DNA of 42,652 nucleotides from a virus. Below, one piece after another: positions 6,463-26,176 of this stretch. Below the pieces are notes generated by a model. It had not been told where the DNA came from. It ran no database searches and was given only the letters and a program-made list of their open reading frames with translations. Every line of letters starts with the position of its first letter. Within the stretch, counting starts at the first letter, position 1. The stretch spans positions 1 to 42,652 of IMG/VR virus record IMGVR_UViG_3300042731_003658; one strand, 5' to 3'. The translations under genes were made by a program, and so were the position numbers.

Positions 6463-7968
6463 TTAGATAATTCTATAAACATAAGTTCTGTGGCCGCAAT
6501 CCCAAATCCTATCATAACCTTGAGCTTTTCTCAATTCAAATTCAGTTTTACCTGACTCACGTTCTACAGCAATCTTTCTCAAAGAGAAATTCCTATATCT
6601 TATACCGGATTTAAAATGATGTGGTGTATATTTAGTTAAAGTCAGTAATTTAAAACCTAATATATCATATACCACATTAAAAATATTAGCATACCTCATA
6701 TCACAGTAGGACCTTATCTCATCATATCCTAATTTCTTTGCATACATAACTACGTGCTTAAATAGTTTGTTTGCTCCACCTACAACAGTATAATTTATCA
6801 AAGAACAGAATCTTTTCAACTCTAATACATTTTTATTTGATATACGTTTTCTTAATAAATTACCTACACCACATGCTGCAATTAACTTGTTATTATTAAA
6901 CAGTCCCCAAGCCTTTACACTATTTGACTTTCCTTGTAAATGATTCTTTTCAAAAAACCCATTAGCTTCATTAGCAGAAATCTCTCTAACGTCGCAATTT
7001 CTTGCAAAGACCTTATGTTTAATAATTCCCAATGCCTGGCAGATCCTAGAAATTACAATATCAAACTTATTATAGATCTCGTCTTCAAAAACCGTTATTA
7101 GTCTCACTCCATTATTAAAACAAGCTACCATCTTTTCATAATGATAATTTCTATCAGTATTACCAAGATTTTCGGAATGCCAGTATAAACCGCAAACCTC
7201 AACAGCAACTTTATTAGAAGGAAAATACAAATCTAATTCTTTTGGTCCTATTACAGTTCTATCATTATATAGACATTTTATATTGGGGTGATGTTCCTTA
7301 AAAAAATCACGAATTTTCTGTTCAGGTTTGGACGTATAATTATTGTTCAAATAACATGTAATACATCTAGCCCCAGTAATGATCTCTCCCCTGCTATTAG
7401 CATCTCTAAAATTATGAAAAGTTGTTTTCCAAGTATGCCCATTAGGACACTTTAATTTAATTTTACTTTTACTATTTAAATATTCTTTTGAAAGTAATTG
7501 GTAACCGCGCTCTTCAACATAGTTTCGTATATAATCAATATTATGAATGTGTATTTTATTTTTATATCTCTTTACATTTTTATTATTTTTTCTATATACT
7601 GCGGCTTTCTTTAATAAAATAGAAGCTTTATTTTTTCTATAATAACTTCTACCTTTCCCTATCATATAATCATGATCTCTTTTTTCATGATAATTTTTAT
7701 TTTTCAATCTAATACGTTCTGCTTCACACTTCTCTGAGCCACAATAAATTTTCTTTTTATAAAATGTTTTAAACTCTTTACCGCATATTTTACATAACCT
7801 TGTATATTCTTTATAACAATTAAGCTCTCTGTTACGATCTCGCCACCTTAGCCTGTCCTTTTCCTGTTTAGATTTAATAGCACAGGATGAACAATACTTT
7901 TGACTCCCTGTAGTAGGAGTAAAAATATTATCACACTGTTTATATTGACATTTCTTATCTTTGTACAT
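6463..7968 (-). CDS. free-standing Vsr-like homing endonuclease with zinc modules
   Basis: A 501-residue protein. The N-terminus has Cys clusters of zinc type (CQYKQC..YCSSC; CKICGKEF..YC..KC). About residues 150-205 form one 'GYQLLSKEY..CPNGH..W..C..C' DNA-binding module. The catalytic core follows around 210-300, with NDRTVIGPKELDLYFP, VEVCGLYWHS and RLITVFEDE. That combination is the signature of the Vsr/EDxHD-like homing endonucleases typified by I-Bth0305I. The C-terminal domain ends with RKAQGYDRIWDCGHRTY, shared with the second Vsr-like gene at 24581-26176. It lies between the MCP stop and the next gene, so the MCP gene is the natural guess for its target. It is not inside an intron or intein. 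Upstream is a 15-bp hairpin and no strong ribosome site. Confidence 0.85.
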   Translation of the reverse strand: MYKDKKCQYKQCDNIFTPTTGSQKYCSSCAIKSKQEKDRLRWRDRNRELNCYKEYTRLCKICGKEFKTFYKKKIYCGSEKCEAERIRLKNKNYHEKRDHDYMIGKGRSYYRKNKASILLKKAAVYRKNNKNVKRYKNKIHIHNIDYIRNYVEERGYQLLSKEYLNSKSKIKLKCPNGHTWKTTFHNFRDANSRGEIITGARCITCYLNNNYTSKPEQKIRDFFKEHHPNIKCLYNDRTVIGPKELDLYFPSNKVAVEVCGLYWHSENLGNTDRNYHYEKMVACFNNGVRLITVFEDEIYNKFDIVISRICQALGIIKHKVFARNCDVREISANEANGFFEKNHLQGKSNSVKAWGLFNNNKLIAACGVGNLLRKRISNKNVLELKRFCSLINYTVVGGANKLFKHVVMYAKKLGYDEIRSYCDMRYANIFNVVYDILGFKLLTLTKYTPHHFKSGIRYRNFSLRKIAVERESGKTEFELRKAQGYDRIWDCGHRTYVYRII

Positions 7969-8042: not shown

Positions 8043-8701
8043 TTACAGACTTCTATCAATAACTCCAATACCTAGCATTCTCGGATCAAGACAGGCGAAT
8101 CCAAGCTCTGCCCATCCAAAAAACCCTTGCTGTTGAGAACGAAGCAGAGTAGGATCATCGTATGCTTCATATTCCTTTCGAATAGGCATAACAAGAGAAT
8201 CATTGACAGTAGAGTCAAAACCTATAATCTGGGTCTCGCCCAGCGTATTAATGGTACCATCAGCATTGGTCAAATTAGGATTATCAAGAGTATACTGATT
8301 GTAAGTATTTCCACTAGCAGCAATAAACTTACCATACTCAGATCCGTAACCATTTATGTTATAAAGACCAGTGGCGCCAAGATGCTGAACTTCATGCATT
8401 GTCACATTCCAAATAACTCCCATTCCGGCCGCCTGGAAAACTTCTCGCCGTGTAATGGGGTCAATATCCGTATCCGTCCATTCACGAATGTCAGCCGCAT
8501 CTTCAGGAGATATATACAAATCAGTCAACTGGCGTCCTACTCTCTTGAAACCAACCATCATTTTATTGATGAGTTCCTTAGAAAGGTATCCAGCTCCTGT
8601 AGAAGCTGGGTTGATTTCATAAATCGGAGCAGGCCTGGACCCTAACAGACCTTTACCAGAAAAAGACGATGTACAAGCTGGCATAATAACTCTCCAACCA
8701 C
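8043..8701 (-). CDS. MCP exon 4 (C-terminal 219 residues)
   Basis: The exon begins in phase 1 at 8701 (GT GGT TGG AGA). The ATG at 8684 only mimics a start, because codons upstream of it (GWRVI) continue the MCP. The exon encodes the capsid core, including GVIWNVTMHEVQHLGATG and ending GIGVIDRSL, and closes with TAA before the hairpin at 7982-8031. Confidence 0.85.
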
Positions 8702-11655
8702 CACTCTGTTACTTTTATGACCTGAAATTATTTATTTTCAGGCGGGCTAAAATTTCTTTTAACCTCTCCATGTCTCCATGGAGTTCAGAACATACCTTCT
8801 ACTCAATGAGTAGCTACTTGGTGTTCGTTGAGAACTGGAGTTACTTTATGATGCATACATTTAGGTAATATATTCTTAATACCATCAAAAAACTTTAAAT
8901 CCTGCTTAATATAAGTAAAAACTATCCTATATTTATTGTCTTGCTGTCTTACAGTAATTCTACTGTTATAAAAATTAGAAAAAAGATCTGCTAAAAAATA
9001 TACCTCTTCCTTACTAAAATTATCAGTACAAAAACGAAGACTATTTTCACAAAAATTACCGTCATCACCTATCAAGACCGCTAACGAAACCATATTAAAA
9101 TTACTTATTAAAAACTCTTTAGGCAGAATTTTGGTTTTATTTTTGTAAAAAAGTTTGTGTAATTCAGTTAAATAAGGATGAACACCGGTAGACATAGAAT
9201 ACACTTTCTGAATATTATATAATTTTTTATTACTCCTACCATCAGGCATCCACATCTTTTTTCCTCTATCTCTATTCCACATATTTGAAGTGGTAAACGG
9301 CTTTAAATTATTATATTTCCATTTTAACCATTCAACTTGATCCGTGGAGTGCTCTTCTCTAAATAATGCATTTTTTAAATGTGATCTTTTCTCTATATGA
9401 CCATCGCCTAATACACTACCTATCAAAAGACTTTTTTGAAAATCAGAAAAATCAGTTCTTTTTAATTCTCCATATATATGTTTTGGTTTAATAAATGTCA
9501 TATCGTGTTTTTTAAGCGATGCCATAACAGTTTGTATAGATACTCTCAACTCTACAGCTGTTTCAAATATATTCCCTTTAAATGTATTTTTTAAGATATC
9601 TCTTTCTATAATCATAAGTTCTCCATTTCTGCTGATTGTCTCTATTCATAGGGTTTTTACTGTACATTGACTAGTACCTATGACCTAACGAGAGTTTCCA
9701 GCATATTCATAGTTTGCTTTATATATCACTATATAAAGGAGCATGTGTGTTTACTCTTCCTCATAATCTGCCAATTCCTTGGCCACCTTAGCGGCCGAAC
9801 GCTGTGCAATATCAATACGAGAATCACGAGCATAAGTAATCTTCCACTGTGCCGACGCGTTAATATTAAACGTAGGCACGTAAACCTCTTCACCTATACC
9901 TTCAATGAAATTCTGAGCCATATAACCGAGTCCCGGTAACACCCACACGGGAATCTCGAAGTCTTCTGCTCAATATCTTCACATGTATTCGTTAAATACA
10001 TGTCGTTTCACAAAGAAACTGCTTTATGTTTCCATAAAGATGAGACCATATCAAAACCCTTCTAAGGGTTTCCCCAATTTCGGCTTCACTTGAAGCCTAC
10101 GGCTATAAAAGCCTGGTCGTTGAACGCTTTTTACACGCTGCTGATTACCCATATATCTTTTTAATTATTACTATATCAGTATAAAAAGCTTTAGGGCTTT
10201 CCAGCAATTAAGGGGATTTTGACGTAATATTACTATTACGAAACGCAACAATTTACGGGATAAACGGCTTGAGCCATTCTGTTACTTTTTGACCTGGAAT
10301 TTTTTTTATTTCAGGCGGGCTATCGCGAGATAACCTCTGTATGTCTCCATACAGTTCGGACTATATTATTACCTATAAAGGTACCTAACGTGTAGTCTCT
10401 GAGATGTCTTTATTATTAGGATTATTGTTTAAAAACTTTACTTTATTTACTATATCGAAAACTTCGTCAGTATTGAATTTGTTATTCTTTTTTAATTCTA
10501 AGTACTCTAACATCAGTATAGCTTGTCTACGTTTGGCATATAATTTATCCTTAACATACAACAAGAACTTTTCTATATCATCATAAGACCTAATGTATAG
10601 ATTGTAATAGTATTTCTTTTTATTTTTACCTAATCTTTTCTTGGCCTTAGACTTAGTAGTTCTAATAGAATACTTAATATCCAAATTATCAAAAATAGTG
10701 ATTATGTTATTCCGATTAGTATCAGATCCAGTAGTTATATCTATAGTTGGTATAACACGCGTATGATAATATTCTCTAATATCCCCATTGACTAATTCAT
10801 ACTCACTTTTTTTGTTTTCAGTAACAACAAAACATACCGAACCATCACCGTCTATCATACCGGCCAACCAAGAGGCAGTGTAATTTCTATTACCATTATC
10901 ATAATTATAGTTAAGATTCAAATTTAACAACTCATCATATAATTTCTTCTGGTAATCAGTGTAAGGTGTATTATTTTGTTTCCAGCCACATTCATAAACA
11001 TAATGTAGTCTGTCAACACAGAATTCCCTAATTATTTCTAATTGAGGTTTTCTAACAACACTACAACCTACCACCAAGTCCGCGAACTCTATACATTTAA
11101 TAAGTCTATTTATAGTGAGCTCTTTTTTATCCTTACCTACTGTAGCCTTCCTGAATCTTATATGATGGTTTATATCATTATCATCTAAGTATTTGTGACA
11201 CAACTCAATCAAACCAAAATTAGTATTAACGAATTGTATACACGGACTTAATCGTAATTTACCTCTAGGATAAAATCTACTTATATAAACACCAAAATCA
11301 CTATCCACTAAACCAGCTATATAATTAGTACTAATAATAAAGTTATCTGCATGATTATCCATTTTATCTTCCTTTTTATTACGTTATCAGTAAAGAACAG
11401 CTTTAGGAGTTTCCAGCATATAGTTAGGTTTACTACGTAGTCTCCCAACTACGCGGGGCACAAAAATTTACCCGGTGCCAACCGTTCAGTAGCAAACATT
11501 CCTCGCATAATCGAATCCAGCTCTAATTTCTGAAGGATAGGAGTTGTGATAGCAGCAGCAAATGCCTTAAAAGCGGCCTCACCAGCGGGGCCAATCTCAG
11601 CAGTGGCTTTAAATAATTCCTGCATTTCTTTGAGTTCCATATTCAACTCCTCCAA
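8043..11655 (-). CDS. major capsid protein, split gene (4 exons, 3 group I introns)
   Basis: Joining exons 11655-11470, 10274-10255, 9970-9753 and 8701-8043 gives a continuous 360-residue protein with no internal stop. The junctions read ..ERLAPG|AQAVYPV|AEDFEIPVW.. and ..DYEEE|CGWRVIMPAC.. Exon lengths (186, 20, 218, 659 nt) sum to 361 codons including the stop. The protein has the general layout of an HK97-fold capsid protein: a helical N-arm, an E-loop-like stretch and a beta-rich centre. It lies after protease, scaffold and decoration-like genes. Each predicted 5' exon ends in U and each intron in G, as group I splicing requires. The capsid role rests on order and general features, not on a database match. 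Unspliced, no exon makes a plausible protein. Confidence 0.85.
8702..9752 (-). ncRNA. group I intron 3 in the MCP gene (1051 nt, with endonuclease gene)
   Basis: The 5' splice site is after GAGT, where GAGU pairs with GCUC in the intron to give a P1 with a terminal U-G pair. A TGCTGGAAA core element lies at about 9695-9704, AATCAGCAG follows, and a GGAGACATGG hairpin is near 8766-8783. The 3' end reads GTAACAGAGTG, nearly the same as intron 1 (GTAACAGAATG). Introns 1 and 3 also share a long AGCCCGCCTGAAA..CAGGTCA..AAAGTAACAGA tail, so they are related. The intron carries the LAGLIDADG-type gene at 8803-9615. Confidence 0.8.
8803..9615 (-). CDS. LAGLIDADG-type homing endonuclease in MCP intron 3
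   Basis: A 270-residue intron-encoded protein. Residues 1-45 look like a helix-turn-helix (ETAVELRVSIQTVMASLKKH). The nuclease half has LLIGSVLGDGHIEKRSH, a first LAGLIDADG-like helix, and later VLIGDDGNFCENSLRF, a second. The basic motifs between them (VEWLKWKYNNLKPF) are typical of the LAGLIDADG_2 intron endonucleases. It presumably cuts intron-less MCP alleles at the exon 3/exon 4 junction. It has its own ribosome site (GGAGAACTT before ATG 9615). It appears intact. Confidence 0.8.
   Translation of the reverse strand: MIIERDILKNTFKGNIFETAVELRVSIQTVMASLKKHDMTFIKPKHIYGELKRTDFSDFQKSLLIGSVLGDGHIEKRSHLKNALFREEHSTDQVEWLKWKYNNLKPFTTSNMWNRDRGKKMWMPDGRSNKKLYNIQKVYSMSTGVHPYLTELHKLFYKNKTKILPKEFLISNFNMVSLAVLIGDDGNFCENSLRFCTDNFSKEEVYFLADLFSNFYNSRITVRQQDNKYRIVFTYIKQDLKFFDGIKNILPKCMHHKVTPVLNEHQVATH
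9753..9970 (-). CDS. MCP exon 3
   Basis: 218 nt, entered in phase 2 (A GCA GAA GAC TTC) and left in phase 1 after GAGT. It encodes AEDFEIPVWVLPGLGYMAQ and on to KVAKELADYEEE. Read alone it ends immediately in TAA, which is an intron base, confirming that it is an internal exon. Confidence 0.85.
9971..10254 (-). ncRNA. group I intron 2 in the MCP gene (284 nt, no ORF)
   Basis: A compact intron with the clearest group I core of the three. It has AATTGCTGGAAA (P element, about 10198-10209), AATCAGCAGC (Q), GTTCAACGACCAGG (R, 10112-10125) and GATATGGTCT (S, 10043-10052), followed by paired hairpins. The 5' exon ends CCCGT and the intron ends GATATTG. It has no coding frame, so it may depend on an endonuclease encoded elsewhere, or no longer move. 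Confidence 0.85.
10255..10274 (-). CDS. MCP exon 2, a 20-nt micro-exon between two group I introns
   Basis: GCTCAAGCCGTTTATCCCGT encodes AQAVYP plus two bases of a Val codon. It is bounded by the GTAACAGAATG 3' end of intron 1 and the start of intron 2. It keeps the frame between exon 1 (phase 0) and exon 3 (phase 2), and is the only segment here that does so. Confidence 0.75.
10275..11469 (-). ncRNA. group I intron 1 in the MCP gene (1195 nt, with endonuclease gene)
   Basis: The 5' splice site is after CCGGGT, with GGGU pairing GCCC downstream through a terminal U-G pair. The core includes TATGCTGGAAA at about 11410-11419, TCAGAGACTACACGT (R-like, about 10388-10403), AATATAGTCC (S-like, 10358-10367) and the CTGTATGGAGACATACAG hairpin (10337-10354). 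The endonuclease frame at 10385-11362 lies inside and its last codons overlap the R-like element. Confidence 0.85.
10385..11362 (-). CDS. double-motif LAGLIDADG homing endonuclease in MCP intron 1
   Basis: A 325-residue protein with two LAGLIDADG helices: YIAGLVDSDFGVY near the N-terminus (about 13-25) and SWLAGMIDGDGSVCF in the middle (about 162-176). Each is followed by strand-rich DNA-binding segments. This is the monomeric two-domain type. Both acidic residues of the motifs are present, so it looks active. Expected target: intron-less MCP DNA at the exon 1/exon 2 junction. The start at 11362 has an AAGGAAGATAAA ribosome site. The 3' end of the gene doubles as part of the intron core. Confidence 0.88.
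   Translation of the reverse strand: MDNHADNFIISTNYIAGLVDSDFGVYISRFYPRGKLRLSPCIQFVNTNFGLIELCHKYLDDNDINHHIRFRKATVGKDKKELTINRLIKCIEFADLVVGCSVVRKPQLEIIREFCVDRLHYVYECGWKQNNTPYTDYQKKLYDELLNLNLNYNYDNGNRNYTASWLAGMIDGDGSVCFVVTENKKSEYELVNGDIREYYHTRVIPTIDITTGSDTNRNNIITIFDNLDIKYSIRTTKSKAKKRLGKNKKKYYYNLYIRSYDDIEKFLLYVKDKLYAKRRQAILMLEYLELKKNNKFNTDEVFDIVNKVKFLNNNPNNKDISETTR
11470..11655 (-). CDS. MCP exon 1 (N-terminal 62 residues)
   Basis: Starts at ATG 11655 behind TTGGAGGAGTTGAAT-type spacing. It encodes an alpha-helical N-arm (MEELNMELKEMQELFK and on to MFATERLAPG). Without splicing the frame would end after six intron codons (KFLCPA). Confidence 0.85.
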
Positions 11656-17231: not shown

Positions 17232-20051
17232 TTATTTAATTATACGCTTATTTTTTAATATAGCATGTCCTAATAAACCATCAAGCACTGTAGTACCAGG
17301 TGAACTATGAGCTCCTAGAAAATGCCAAGGGGCATTAGGTTTACGCTCTTGTACATAACCCCCTGTCTGGTATAACAGTGGTTCAGGATCGCCCTCCAAT
17401 TCACGGGCCACGAGCTTACAACCATGAGCAGCTAGAATCATGGCTGAATATAAATCCTTATTCTGCCCCTTCTTAGGTGTATCAAAATGCAGAGCGCCGG
17501 AGCCAGTCTGTGTTACAACTATATTCAACATTTGCTTCTTTAAAGTCAAAATGTTTTTGTAAATCTTATCAAGTACAGAGACACCATCAACAGGGGTCTC
17601 TGGAAATAATAACTTCTTATCTTCCAACATAGCTAGAGTAGTAAAATTAGCATCAGTTATCCATGTCGGATTAAAATTAACCATCTCAAGTATATGGCGG
17701 CCCTTCAAAGTTACCTTATCTTTATCCGAGCGATCTATTATCGGTTCCTTACTATTATAGCCTTCTTCTAATAAGTCCATTATAGCATTACCACCGCCGC
17801 CCTTATCCATGAAAATCCTAACAACATTATAGGACTCACAGATAGCCTGTACTGTCATTGTTAATTCCTGTGTGGTCTTACCCTTCAATTCCAACACATT
17901 AACAAGCACATTTGGATTACCCAGCCTTACGATTACTACACCGCAACTCGCACTACCTCCCTGACTTGGGTCTACACCAACAACATATTCGGCTCCTGGC
18001 TCACCACGGACCTCCAAACCAAAAGATCCGGTACAAGACTCCAACACGGAAGCTTTGAAAAATCCCTCTGAATCAGATACCATCGCGGCTTCGTATTCCA
18101 TACTAAATTCAGCGGAAGACATTATACGTTCCGCCTCCTTTATATTATTCTCATCAAGAAATCCATTTGGTAAATCCCAATAAGGTACCTGCCAAACTTT
18201 ATATTGAGATTCTTCACCGTGAAGCTCCATTTGCCGCCAATAGTCTTTCATTCTACGCCACATATGATTGAACTTATAAAACCCTGATGAAGTCATTACC
18301 ATTTTATTAATTTTACCATCTTCAAAATCATCCTCTGTAGCTAGTCCTAACTTAATCAATTTTTCTTGCCGCTGTAATCTCCTAACATTTTCCATTGGTT
18401 CGAGTGTTGTGGCGCCCATAGGTCTAACAACCATATCCAATACTTGGTCTGGGACTTGAGCTAACTCGTCCACTACTATAAGATAGAAACGTGAACCACG
18501 GATCTTACTATTATGACTGAAAAAACCATTTGCACAGTATTCATTACCGTCTGGTACATGAATATCATATGTACACGCTTCTCCATCAGTAATTTCTATT
18601 ATTTCATCATAATATATATTAGTATTATTTAATCTGCGTATTATGTCTATTCTACTATCATCAATATGTCCATATTTATATAATAAATCATCACATAATG
18701 CAAAAGATAAGTCTTTTCTACTAATCAGTTTGCTGGGGACTATATCGGGGCATTTTCTACAACCATCGAAGCCTTTGTAATGATATTCATTAACAAAATC
18801 AATTACCATATGTATGTCAATTGGTACAGTATCATAATGGTTATATGTATCTCTATGAATGTATTTATTGGTTTTTCTGGATAAACCAAAACCTATTTCT
18901 TTCATATATAAATCAACATTAGTACCAGTAATATCTAATGTATAACACACATTCCAATTTGAGTTACATTCGGGCTTTTTACTCAACTTTGCAACAATAC
19001 CATAATGTAGTAAGATATATTGTAATTGGCCAACTAATTCTTTTGAAGTATTTGTAAAAATAATTCTATCACCTTTATCCGAAATAGAACCATCACCGTC
19101 CATCAATCCTCTTATAAAAGATGACATAACATCCCTGCTTGAACATAATATAACTTTTGGTATGGATTTGTCTATAGTTTTAACTTTAGATAAACCAAAC
19201 GTATCACATAACCACGAATTAACTATAGATGAATCACACCCAGCAACTAATAAACCCAAAGAATAAGCCTGTTCCTTTGTCACATCAGTATGTCCACTAT
19301 GCCACCGTTTAGTTCGATCTATTAATACACGATCCCCAACTACCATAGCATCAAATCTACACCAAACTATCTCACCGCCTCTGACTACTTTAAACTCATG
19401 ATTAGGCGTACCTTCGCTTTCAAAACCTTTTTTGGTCTTAATTTTGATAGTATTTTTTATACCATTACATAAAGATCTATCAGTTAGCTTAAAAGCACCA
19501 TTAGACCACACCATATCTTCTCTATCTAAATAGTGATTGTGATCTATATTATCAACATGAGCGTCATCTATTTTTCCAAATCTATCACTAAATGTCAAAT
19601 AATTACAAGAAGTTATACAGCCATCGCCCAAAGGTAACGCTTCGATAAATGAGGGACTACAACCTCCTACGGACTTGAATCTTAAATAACAGGTATCAGA
19701 GCCCCTGGTAGGTCTCTTCTCACAGGCTTCACGTAATAGTGGGGATTTTGCGTAAAGTTTCTCAACTTCACTGAAGATCATCTTGCTTTGGCGGAAAACG
19801 GGCCCAATTAACCCTACTCTATATCCTGGGTACAGCATACAACTCAAAGTAGATAAAGTTCCTAACATAAAAGTCTTACCTACGCCACGGCCACAAATAG
19901 CTATAACGTAGTTCTTAAACCACATATCCTCGAAGACCGCCCTTTGTATAGGTGCTAAATCCACACGCAACAGGTCATAGGCAGCAATGCATGGATTTTC
20001 TCTATAAAATTCTATGAGTTCCATACCCTGCTCCATGATTATGTCGGACAT
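17232..20051 (-). CDS. terminase large subunit, interrupted by an intein
   Basis: A 939-residue precursor. The N-terminal ATPase has Walker A GRGVGKT (54-60). After removal of the intein the junction reads ..PLGDG|SKIRGSRFYL, followed by Walker B (YLIVVDELAQ). The C-terminal nuclease has VVGVDPSQGG, IFMDKGGGG and a late Asp in NKDLYSAMILAAHG, the expected acidic metal ligands. The mature protein would be 569 residues, normal for a terminase that cuts and translocates phage DNA at the portal. It heads the packaging operon. The ATG at 20051 follows AAGGAGAGGTAGTT. Confidence 0.92.
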   Translation of the reverse strand: MSDIIMEQGMELIEFYRENPCIAAYDLLRVDLAPIQRAVFEDMWFKNYVIAICGRGVGKTFMLGTLSTLSCMLYPGYRVGLIGPVFRQSKMIFSEVEKLYAKSPLLREACEKRPTRGSDTCYLRFKSVGGCSPSFIEALPLGDGCITSCNYLTFSDRFGKIDDAHVDNIDHNHYLDREDMVWSNGAFKLTDRSLCNGIKNTIKIKTKKGFESEGTPNHEFKVVRGGEIVWCRFDAMVVGDRVLIDRTKRWHSGHTDVTKEQAYSLGLLVAGCDSSIVNSWLCDTFGLSKVKTIDKSIPKVILCSSRDVMSSFIRGLMDGDGSISDKGDRIIFTNTSKELVGQLQYILLHYGIVAKLSKKPECNSNWNVCYTLDITGTNVDLYMKEIGFGLSRKTNKYIHRDTYNHYDTVPIDIHMVIDFVNEYHYKGFDGCRKCPDIVPSKLISRKDLSFALCDDLLYKYGHIDDSRIDIIRRLNNTNIYYDEIIEITDGEACTYDIHVPDGNEYCANGFFSHNSKIRGSRFYLIVVDELAQVPDQVLDMVVRPMGATTLEPMENVRRLQRQEKLIKLGLATEDDFEDGKINKMVMTSSGFYKFNHMWRRMKDYWRQMELHGEESQYKVWQVPYWDLPNGFLDENNIKEAERIMSSAEFSMEYEAAMVSDSEGFFKASVLESCTGSFGLEVRGEPGAEYVVGVDPSQGGSASCGVVIVRLGNPNVLVNVLELKGKTTQELTMTVQAICESYNVVRIFMDKGGGGNAIMDLLEEGYNSKEPIIDRSDKDKVTLKGRHILEMVNFNPTWITDANFTTLAMLEDKKLLFPETPVDGVSVLDKIYKNILTLKKQMLNIVVTQTGSGALHFDTPKKGQNKDLYSAMILAAHGCKLVARELEGDPEPLLYQTGGYVQERKPNAPWHFLGAHSSPGTTVLDGLLGHAILKNKRIIK
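18510..19619 (-). mobile_element. intein with LAGLIDADG endonuclease domain in the terminase
   Basis: 370 residues from Cys145 of the precursor to Asn514. Block A: CITSCNYLTFSDRFG. Block B: EGTPNHEFKVV (the T-x-x-H). The endonuclease has LGLLVAGCDSS (degenerate first motif) and IRGLMDGDGSIS (canonical second motif). Blocks F and G: YDIHVPDGNEYCANGFFSHN. The penultimate His, terminal Asn and following Ser (+1) are all present, so class-1 splicing should work. The insertion splits a conserved G-D-G/S-K-I-R-G segment between the two Walker motifs. Confidence 0.93.
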
Positions 20052-24580: not shown

Positions 24581-26176
24581 CTATTTACAATTCTCCTTGA
24601 TAAATTTTTTATTTCCGCAATCCCAAATTATATTACGACCTTGGGATTTACGAATTTGCCGCTCAGCGGCCGGTTCGTTTTTTAACTTCTCCATACTAGA
24701 CCTATGTTTTCTGTTTAACTTCTTAAAATACCAATAATCTGGTTTGGTATTACCTATACAAGTGAACCCCATTATCTCGTATAAACCACCATCACACCAC
24801 CTGAGATCTGAATATGAAAAAATCGATTTCCAACTACAATTATTTTCAAAGTAATTTAATAACTTAGACTCAATTCCAATAATTTCATAATTTAATTTTG
24901 AACAAAATCTATGTAATTCCCAAACATTCTCTTGTTCATTAGCCATTGGTAATTTACTAAAAGACATAACACCAACAAGTTTATTGCAATAAAAAGCACC
25001 TAATCTAGCAGACGATACATTATCATAACCTTGTAAATGATTTTTTTCACAAAATTCTTTTATTACACCCGGGCTAACTTCCTTTATCTCACAATCACGG
25101 GCGTAAATAACCTCACAATCTCCAAAACCAATAATACTATTTAAAGTACTATTAACAATATCCTTTTTATTAATAAATTCATCCTCAAAAATAGTTAATA
25201 ACCTATATCCTTTTTCTTCGCAGGCTTTTAATTTATTAAGATGATAATTTTTGTCTTTTCCAGCTAGTTCGGAGTGCCAATAGAGGCCACAGTATTCTAT
25301 GGCTAATTTTTTTTCCGGGATTACAATATCTAATTCCTGTGGAGAAATTAGGGTTCTATCCCTTTCAATAATATCGTATTCCAAATTAGCTCTCAGATAA
25401 TTTAATAGACTTTGTTCACCATTAGAGGTACCACTAAAAGAACACTTATAGCACCTCTGGCCTTGCTGCCACCTATTCCAAGTTATTGAATGTTTATGAC
25501 CATCTGGACAAATATATTTTAATTTTTGCTTGCCGTTTTTGTATTCCTTAATTAAAAGCTTATAACCCTCTTTCTCAAACTCTGACTTTATATACTCTAT
25601 ACTATGTATACATTTACCAGAACATATAGGGCATCTTTCAGTAGAGTTATTATTCCAATAACCCCACGTAATATAACCCTCATGTCCTTTAGGACACTTA
25701 TATCTCATCTTTGTATTAGCGTTTTTATAACTATCCTCTAATAAGACATACCCATTAGTTTTGAAAGCCTCTTTTACTTCCTCTATAGTTGGTTTGATAT
25801 TTTTAGAGCACAAAGCGCACCTATTACCCTTAGAAGTCCACGAATCCCACGACGTTGTGTATATATGACCATTAGGACAAATATATTCAAGTTTTGTATC
25901 GCAAGATATATATTCAGTGCTTAAAAGAGTGTACCCCTCTTTGGCAAAAACTCTTCTTATATATTCTATATCCCTACCATATACTCTACTGTTTTCGGAA
26001 CAATAAGGACACCGTCTACCGGCGTTCCATTTATTCCAAGTAATGCCACGTCTATGTCCATTAGGACATTCATATTCTAACTTGGAAGAAGAATTAATAT
26101 ACTCTTTAGAAAGTAATTTATATCCGTTTTCCTCAAAACTTCTTTTTACAAAATCATATGTTAGCTTTTTAAACAT
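24581..26176 (-). CDS. Vsr-like homing endonuclease with four zinc-ribbon repeats
   Basis: A 531-residue protein. Four tandem modules of about 65 residues occupy 1-260, each with 'GY.LL..EY......K..Y.CP.GH....TW..W.....RC..C'. The nuclease core at about 265-345 contains RDRTLISPQELDIVIPEKKL, IEYCGLYWHSE and RLLTIFEDEF, matching the Vsr-type homing endonucleases (I-Bth0305I class). A C-terminal domain ending RKSQGRNIIWDCGNKKF is shared with the gene at 6463-7968. It sits exactly between the lysin (TAATG overlap) and the cold-shock gene (1-nt gap) and is not in an intron. It looks intact. Confidence 0.87.
   Translation of the reverse strand: MFKKLTYDFVKRSFEENGYKLLSKEYINSSSKLEYECPNGHRRGITWNKWNAGRRCPYCSENSRVYGRDIEYIRRVFAKEGYTLLSTEYISCDTKLEYICPNGHIYTTSWDSWTSKGNRCALCSKNIKPTIEEVKEAFKTNGYVLLEDSYKNANTKMRYKCPKGHEGYITWGYWNNNSTERCPICSGKCIHSIEYIKSEFEKEGYKLLIKEYKNGKQKLKYICPDGHKHSITWNRWQQGQRCYKCSFSGTSNGEQSLLNYLRANLEYDIIERDRTLISPQELDIVIPEKKLAIEYCGLYWHSELAGKDKNYHLNKLKACEEKGYRLLTIFEDEFINKKDIVNSTLNSIIGFGDCEVIYARDCEIKEVSPGVIKEFCEKNHLQGYDNVSSARLGAFYCNKLVGVMSFSKLPMANEQENVWELHRFCSKLNYEIIGIESKLLNYFENNCSWKSIFSYSDLRWCDGGLYEIMGFTCIGNTKPDYWYFKKLNRKHRSSMEKLKNEPAAERQIRKSQGRNIIWDCGNKKFIKENCK

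Follow-up and report, generated by a model that had tools for sequence, protein, structure and literature searches.

The window analysed here, a 42,652-base IMG/VR virus record (IMGVR_UViG_3300042731_003658) with linear ends, represents an incomplete genome and carries on its minus strand a major capsid gene divided among four exons. Exon 1 (11470..11640, 171 nt) has an ATG start and ends in CCGGGT, exon 2 (10255..10274) is a micro-exon of 20 nt that encodes AQAVYP and two bases of the following V codon, exon 3 (9753..9970, 218 nt) ends in GAAGAGT, and exon 4 (8043..8701, 659 nt) includes the stop codon. When joined, the segments (171 + 20 + 218 + 659 nt) give an uninterrupted frame of 355 residues. 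A first-pass annotation made from the sequence had located the gene at 8043-11655 and described a continuous protein after removal of three introns, and both statements hold, with the gene read from the minus strand. The exon lengths given there (186, 20, 218 and 659 nt) likewise keep the frame and are correct for the last three exons. The 186-nt exon 1 and a protein of 360 residues had been counted from a TTG at 11655; the start is placed here at the ATG at 11640, because a GGAGGAG motif resembling a ribosome-binding site (11647..11653, minus strand) precedes it and relatives start there.

Residues 21-240 of the joined sequence match PHROG 2522, a major head protein family (E 1.7e-10), while the Pfam search of the same protein returned no match. 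Only three of 50,697 records resemble it; the similarity is distant and involves the major head proteins of Bacillus phage G (E 2e-7) and Tunturiibacter phage Tunturi_5 (E 1e-4). A profile of 32 relatives aligned by hhalign to phage G gp27 with a probability of 98.3, and upstream of the capsid gene there are matches to a head-decoration protein, a portal (weak, E 0.002) and a terminase. On the basis of the similarity over most of the protein and its position in a head module, we assign it to the head proteins of the PHROG 2522 and phage G type; the PHROG and gp27 matches bear out its initial naming as the major capsid protein. The AlphaFold2 model of one relative (L002) had a mean pLDDT of 41.8, which is too poor for reading an HK97 fold.

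Several other features of the window were observed in passing. The terminase large subunit ORF (17232-20051, minus strand, 939 aa) holds an intein-like insert between its terminase parts, with matches to LAGLIDADG_3 (E 7.3e-16) and, just below the cut-off, to Intein_splicing (E 3.4e-8). Directly downstream of the capsid gene lies a nuclease-like ORF (6463-7968, minus strand) that matches PHROG families of HNH and homing endonucleases (E 2.7e-70); related ORFs follow the capsid gene in the contigs L102, L103 and L104. Another large nuclease-like ORF (24581-26176, minus strand) contains three stretches of the CapR domain, and a direct repeat of 109 nt (2219-2327 and 2801-2909, 90% identical) is located inside an 841-aa ORF matching DUF2793.

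Exon junctions and insertion sites

From a search of viral contigs, 80 of 85 relatives were kept. The gene is in one piece in 69 of these 80 loci, some of them near-identical to one another; eight loci bear introns (L065, L066, L069, L072, L077, L079, L080 and L081), two are cut by contig ends (L060 and L078), and one shows a frame slip (L071). The joined protein of the window aligned without gaps at all three junctions to each of the 69 one-piece relatives, with identities of 68-88%, and the junction regions LAPG-AQAVYPV-AEDFEI and EEE-CGWR are strongly conserved among relatives. Identical junctions were obtained by splice-aware alignment, in which a T before the intron and a G at its end received a small bonus. 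A high intron penalty was used for mapping; a low penalty led to false introns at gene ends. Protein alignment alone places each junction only within the shifts that the frame permits, and it is the preceding U, the terminal G and the pairings P1 and P10 that narrow this range.

Intron-bearing genes were not all counted as independent. L072 is identical to the window, and L066 and L081 have introns of equal length at a shared site, L081 moreover stopping within the gene (residues to 200) and being mapped only in the low-penalty splice alignment. Four further genes (L100, L102, L103 and L104) came from searches outside the 80-locus set. A candidate 'intron' of 122 nt in L071 (site 290.0) was rejected and not counted, as tblastn recovers that gene in two neighbouring parts between which the frame slips slightly. 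The slip lies near residue 250 (L071:2457-2460) and is perhaps a sequencing error.

The resulting eleven distinct genes identify the capsid gene as an intron hot spot with ten insertion sites, which we name by residue and phase (58.0, 61.0, 64.2, 66.0, 70.2, 80.1, 89.0, 137.1, 205.0 and 214.0). They provide 23 introns with both ends and the end of one more. The sites are 58.0, 64.2 and 137.1 in the window, 61.0 and 66.0 in L065, 58.0 in L066, 80.1 in L069 and L077, 80.1, 89.0 and 137.1 in L079, 61.0, 70.2 and 80.1 in L080, 61.0 and 137.1 in L100, 80.1 and 137.1 in L102, 58.0, 66.0 and 137.1 in L104, and 205.0 and 214.0 in L103, which is cut by the contig end and retains the end of a 137.1 intron. 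A stretch of 93 nt holds seven of the ten sites (scan probability 2.9e-4), and conservation around the sites exceeds the mean of the gene (0.803 vs 0.746; p 4e-4, by circular shift 0.017). Both values were calculated with the sites already in hand, and the conservation at site 58.0 is at the 21st percentile. Six viruses are left with a total of seven micro-exons of 15-29 nt: 20 nt in the window, 15 in L065, 24 in L104, 26 in L079, 29 and 29 in L080, and 27 in L103. With the contig-cut L103 left out, all ten joined genes have an ATG start and no stop, and encode 354-359 aa. Next to each other in a different gene on the contig of L103 (L085:4363-8245), there seem to be two introns that carry LAGLIDADG-like ORFs; judged by eye, the exon between them is about 43 nt long.

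Two contigs from bacterial genome bins labelled Fermentibacteria and WOR-3 (L107 and L108) also hold the gene. We have not taken either as the host on this account; the two may be virus contigs binned with bacteria.

Group I ribozymes and endonucleases

Intron 1 (10275..11469, minus strand, 1195 nt, site 58.0) has a P1 helix GGGU/GCCC and a 325-aa ORF for a LAGLIDADG-type endonuclease (10385..11362, minus strand) with a homologue in L100; its P7-P3'-P8-P7'-P9 core lies at 10334..10403. Intron 3 (8702..9752, minus strand, 1051 nt, site 137.1) is built in the same way, with P1 GAGU/GCUC, a 270-aa LAGLIDADG_2 endonuclease ORF (8803..9615, minus strand; PF03161, E 8.2e-32) and the core at 8763..8832. 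The ORF of intron 1 overlaps with its 3' end the 5' strand of P7 and has its TAG stop in the 3' strand of P3, and that of intron 3 overlaps the P7 5' and P3 3' strands and has its TGA stop in P8. Both ORFs thus reach into the ribozyme core, so that the same bases serve endonuclease and ribozyme. Intron 1's product scored 20.8 against PF05204, just under the cut-off of 21.1, and the PHROGs that it matches best bear the name HNH endonuclease; the L100 homologue passes the cut-offs of PF05204 and PF14528. Both proteins are therefore placed among the LAGLIDADG endonucleases, that of intron 3 by PF03161 and that of intron 1 via the homologue. A Pfam search with the endonuclease-like ORF of the 80.1 introns (L069) gave no match.

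Intron 2 (9971..10254, minus strand, 284 nt, site 64.2) is without a long ORF, the longest having 33 codons, and its core is at 10019..10124. Between the 5' strand of P7 and the 3' strand of P3 it carries added sequence with two hairpins that is absent from the other introns. We take such an insert to be typical of group IA, and intron 2 may represent a different subtype.

For the group I core motifs recognised in the initial reading, the covariance-model search proposed there was run with two models. The Rfam model RF00028 detected intron 2 with 67.8 bits (gathering cut-off 50); the 3' part of intron 1 scored 40.8 bits, below gathering, and the 3' part of intron 3 gave no match, the cores of these two introns being interrupted by ORFs. 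Short stretches were needed for this search: with the default (fast) Rfam filters nothing was found in the whole window, and even intron 2 escaped when 6.5 kb were searched by E-value. All three introns were found by model R2, which was built from 13 of the 23 introns, all from relatives and none from the window or from site 137.1, although two of the training introns occupy site 58.0, the site of intron 1. Over the whole window, R2 gave 76.4, 53.2 and 34.0 bits for introns 1, 3 and 2, respectively, and the next match reached 11.0 bits (E 0.41). In the 85 loci (799 kb), a further model, R1, had 27 matches at E up to 0.1, of which 25 fell in mapped capsid introns, those used for building R1 matching by construction, and two in L085; none was found at this threshold in any of the 69 one-piece loci.

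Covariation was assessed on an alignment of 18 of the 23 introns, which left out intron 2 of the window, L065_66, L103_214, L077_80 and L104_137. In P7, P8 and P9, 94.8% of cells are paired compared to 76.9% after shuffling, and both-sided changes occur in 13 of 16 pairs. P7 is mostly GACUA/UAGUC; it reads GAACA/UGUUC at site 137.1, including intron 3, GACCA/UGGUC in intron 2 of the window and GACUG/CAGUC in two introns at 80.1, and its last pair is mismatched in four introns. When tested against shuffled partners with refitting, P1 (12 introns, among them the three of the window) and P3 (12 introns, intron 1 being the single one from the window) each gave p 1e-5; P3 pairs in all three window introns. 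In the P1 test, the own exon ranked first in 8 of 12 cases, and the rank of the window's intron 2 is not trusted because, by reading of the sequence, its score reflects pairing to the P4 motif rather than to its actual P1. The P1 of intron 2 is the weakest point, with only three pairs (CGU/GCG). P10 pairing amounts to 0.69 vs 0.52 in shuffled controls (p 5e-4; 20 distinct introns, group-wide), the positions of the internal guide sequence (IGS) having been placed by hand ahead of the test for intron 2 of the window, L103_205 and L103_214; intron 2 forms four of four P10 pairs, intron 3 three and intron 1 two.

As had been noticed at the outset, the three introns of the window start after U and end in G. 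Each has a U.G pair in P1. Across the group, the 5' exon as placed ends in T for 23 of 23 introns and the intron ends in G for 22, the 80.1 intron of L080 ending in A as placed. The first-pass annotation had also concluded from a shared 3' tail that introns 1 and 3 are related. The tail is real, but the same AAGTAACA tail is found in 17 of the 23 introns and at six of the ten sites.

Probable splicing and possible spread of the introns

From sequence, covariation and relatives we infer, with a probability of about 0.93, that the locus encodes a functional major capsid protein of a tailed phage and that three group I introns remove themselves from its message. Three separate introns would leave the transcript by means of their own ribozymes, thereby restoring the coding sequence of the 355-aa head protein. 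The guide sequence of each intron would pair with the end of the 5' exon to form helix P1, with the U.G pair at the cut, and the guide sequences of many introns would pair with the start of the 3' exon as well (P10). Within the 20-nt exon, the bases predicted to form P10 of intron 1 and P1 of intron 2 do not overlap, and neither ribozyme would therefore need to wait for the other.

It appears rather unlikely that the 20-nt exon is often skipped by alternative splicing, with exon 1 joined to exon 3. Adjacent group I introns are reported to behave in this way in the TerL gene of SIOphi, and Twort orf142 is cited likewise (PMC11878797), but skipping here would shift the frame and exon 1 would continue into exon 3 for 22 more codons up to a TGA, therefore yielding a fragment of 79 residues that may be a by-product.

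We consider it very improbable that the gene is a decaying remnant, broken by mobile elements, with a different copy supplying the capsid. Because the record is a fragment, a further copy could lie outside it; the P1 of intron 2 is weak, and the capsid branch of the window is long (0.26, neighbours about 0.04-0.08). However, the intact capsid gene elsewhere that the first-pass annotation had thought of did not turn up, as neither the window record nor the related 77-kb record G001, both of which are incomplete, yielded a second copy. The dN/dS of the window capsid against three relatives is 0.035-0.037, values that are rough because dS (> 2.4) is saturated, and the 355 codons contain no stop or frameshift. 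Furthermore, compensatory changes keep the ribozyme helices, and the joined genes are open in all ten viruses.

An assembly artefact, in which introns of different strains were stitched into one contig, is also highly improbable. The related records are metagenome contigs and were judged as assembled, but the same arrangement is present in the window and G001 (100% identity across the 12,663 bases compared, although the two may not be independent), four records, each bearing its own dataset number, repeat that of L100 at 99.8% or more, and the guide sequences fit the local exons. Finally, separate translation of the pieces without splicing and assembly of the capsid from them can practically be dismissed: exon 4 has an internal ATG (213-aa ORF) and exon 3 an internal GTG (65-aa ORF), but exon 2 comprises six whole residues and offers no start codon, exon 3 has no in-frame ATG before residue 81, and exons 1, 2 and 3, each read on into the intron, meet a stop within seven codons.

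The endonucleases encoded in introns 1 and 3 would cleave alleles that lack the intron, and the introns would spread by homing, as suggested by the endonuclease family and the scattered distribution of the introns. On a tree of 79 capsid proteins, the intron-bearing genes are scattered, with seven label changes, and the window's gene belongs to a supported set of six rows whose other members are without introns. The sister genes L100 and L102 have 137.1 in common and differ in 61.0 vs 80.1, and the sisters L065 and L080 share only 61.0. The endonucleases at 58.0 and 61.0, two sites 9 nt apart, form one family, and that of the window at 58.0 is 62% identical to the L100 protein at 61.0, compared to 41% and 48% for those of L104 and L066 at 58.0. 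In the ribozyme tree, the three 61.0 introns group together (support 0.86), apart from the window's 58.0 intron, other supports being modest. The histories of endonuclease and ribozyme therefore seem to differ. No co-conversion tract was seen around site 137.1, a test that is not strong because third positions are too diverged.

We tentatively suggest that the short stretch with seven sites in 93 nt could be a battleground of homing introns, although we hold this to be possible rather than probable. One endonuclease lineage would have come to sit on ribozymes aimed at 58.0 and 61.0, so that ribozyme and endonuclease were swapped or re-aimed within a single cutting target. Every intron that arrives may protect the gene against rivals cutting next door, so that the exons left behind become ever shorter.

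Comparison with known systems

The genes described here form a natural set: close relatives such as L100 and L102 or L065 and L080 differ in how many putative self-splicing introns they carry, where these lie and how far apart they are. Two questions become testable through this variation, namely the smallest distance at which a pair of group I ribozymes can function in a phage message, and whether the settling of adjacent introns reflects endonucleases competing for one target. Ordinary gene calling readily overlooks exons of 15-29 nt and would read the capsid gene of such phages as truncated. In a literature search that covered few subscription papers, no phage capsid gene with clustered insertion sites and 15-29-nt exons came to light; we do not claim that none has been published.

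The spacing of 20 nt had at first been described as close to the smallest reported for group I introns. This does not hold: a shorter exon is present in the relative L065 (15 nt) and, outside phages, in placozoan cox1, where a 1-nt exon separates two group IB introns (PMC5436844). In Agaricus bisporus cox1, an exon of 3 nt lies between introns (PMC2987802). Like the capsid gene of the window, both cox1 genes have introns crowded in a conserved gene with micro-exons left between them; unlike it, they are mitochondrial and their exons are far shorter.

Among phages, SIOphi and phiNIT1 carry adjacent group I introns within one gene, as does the window, in their terminase and ribonucleotide reductase genes, respectively, with splicing shown in vitro, and a small exon between two group I introns is described for phiNIT1 (PMC11878797). 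The genes are other ones, and the phiNIT1 exon is likened here by its description as small. Such a small exon, and exon skipping, are thus on record for Bastillevirinae, and three group I introns with exon skipping are cited for Twort orf142 (PMC11878797). Twort thus resembles the window in having three group I introns in one structural gene, but this is a tail tube gene, and skipping of exon 2 in the window would shift the frame. For the Jug phages, about 18.5 introns per genome are reported.

Introns in phage capsid genes have also been described. In mycobacteriophage LittleE, an endonuclease-bearing capsid intron comparable to those of the window was proved to be spliced by cDNA and N-terminal sequencing, and the authors call group I most likely (PMC3706429); it is a single intron, however, and its endonuclease is of the HNH type. 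Further parallels come from crAss-like phages (PMC7886860). In their Delta group, capsid introns occur along with a TerL intein, and in the Zeta-group phage OLRF01000054 the MCP gene is in five fragments. The latter shares with the window a major capsid gene split by several introns, but it belongs to another phage group and was compared by the gene and its number of fragments. Multi-intron phage capsid genes are therefore already known, and the capsid gene of the window, with the splicing that we infer for it, is best regarded as a rich variant of them.
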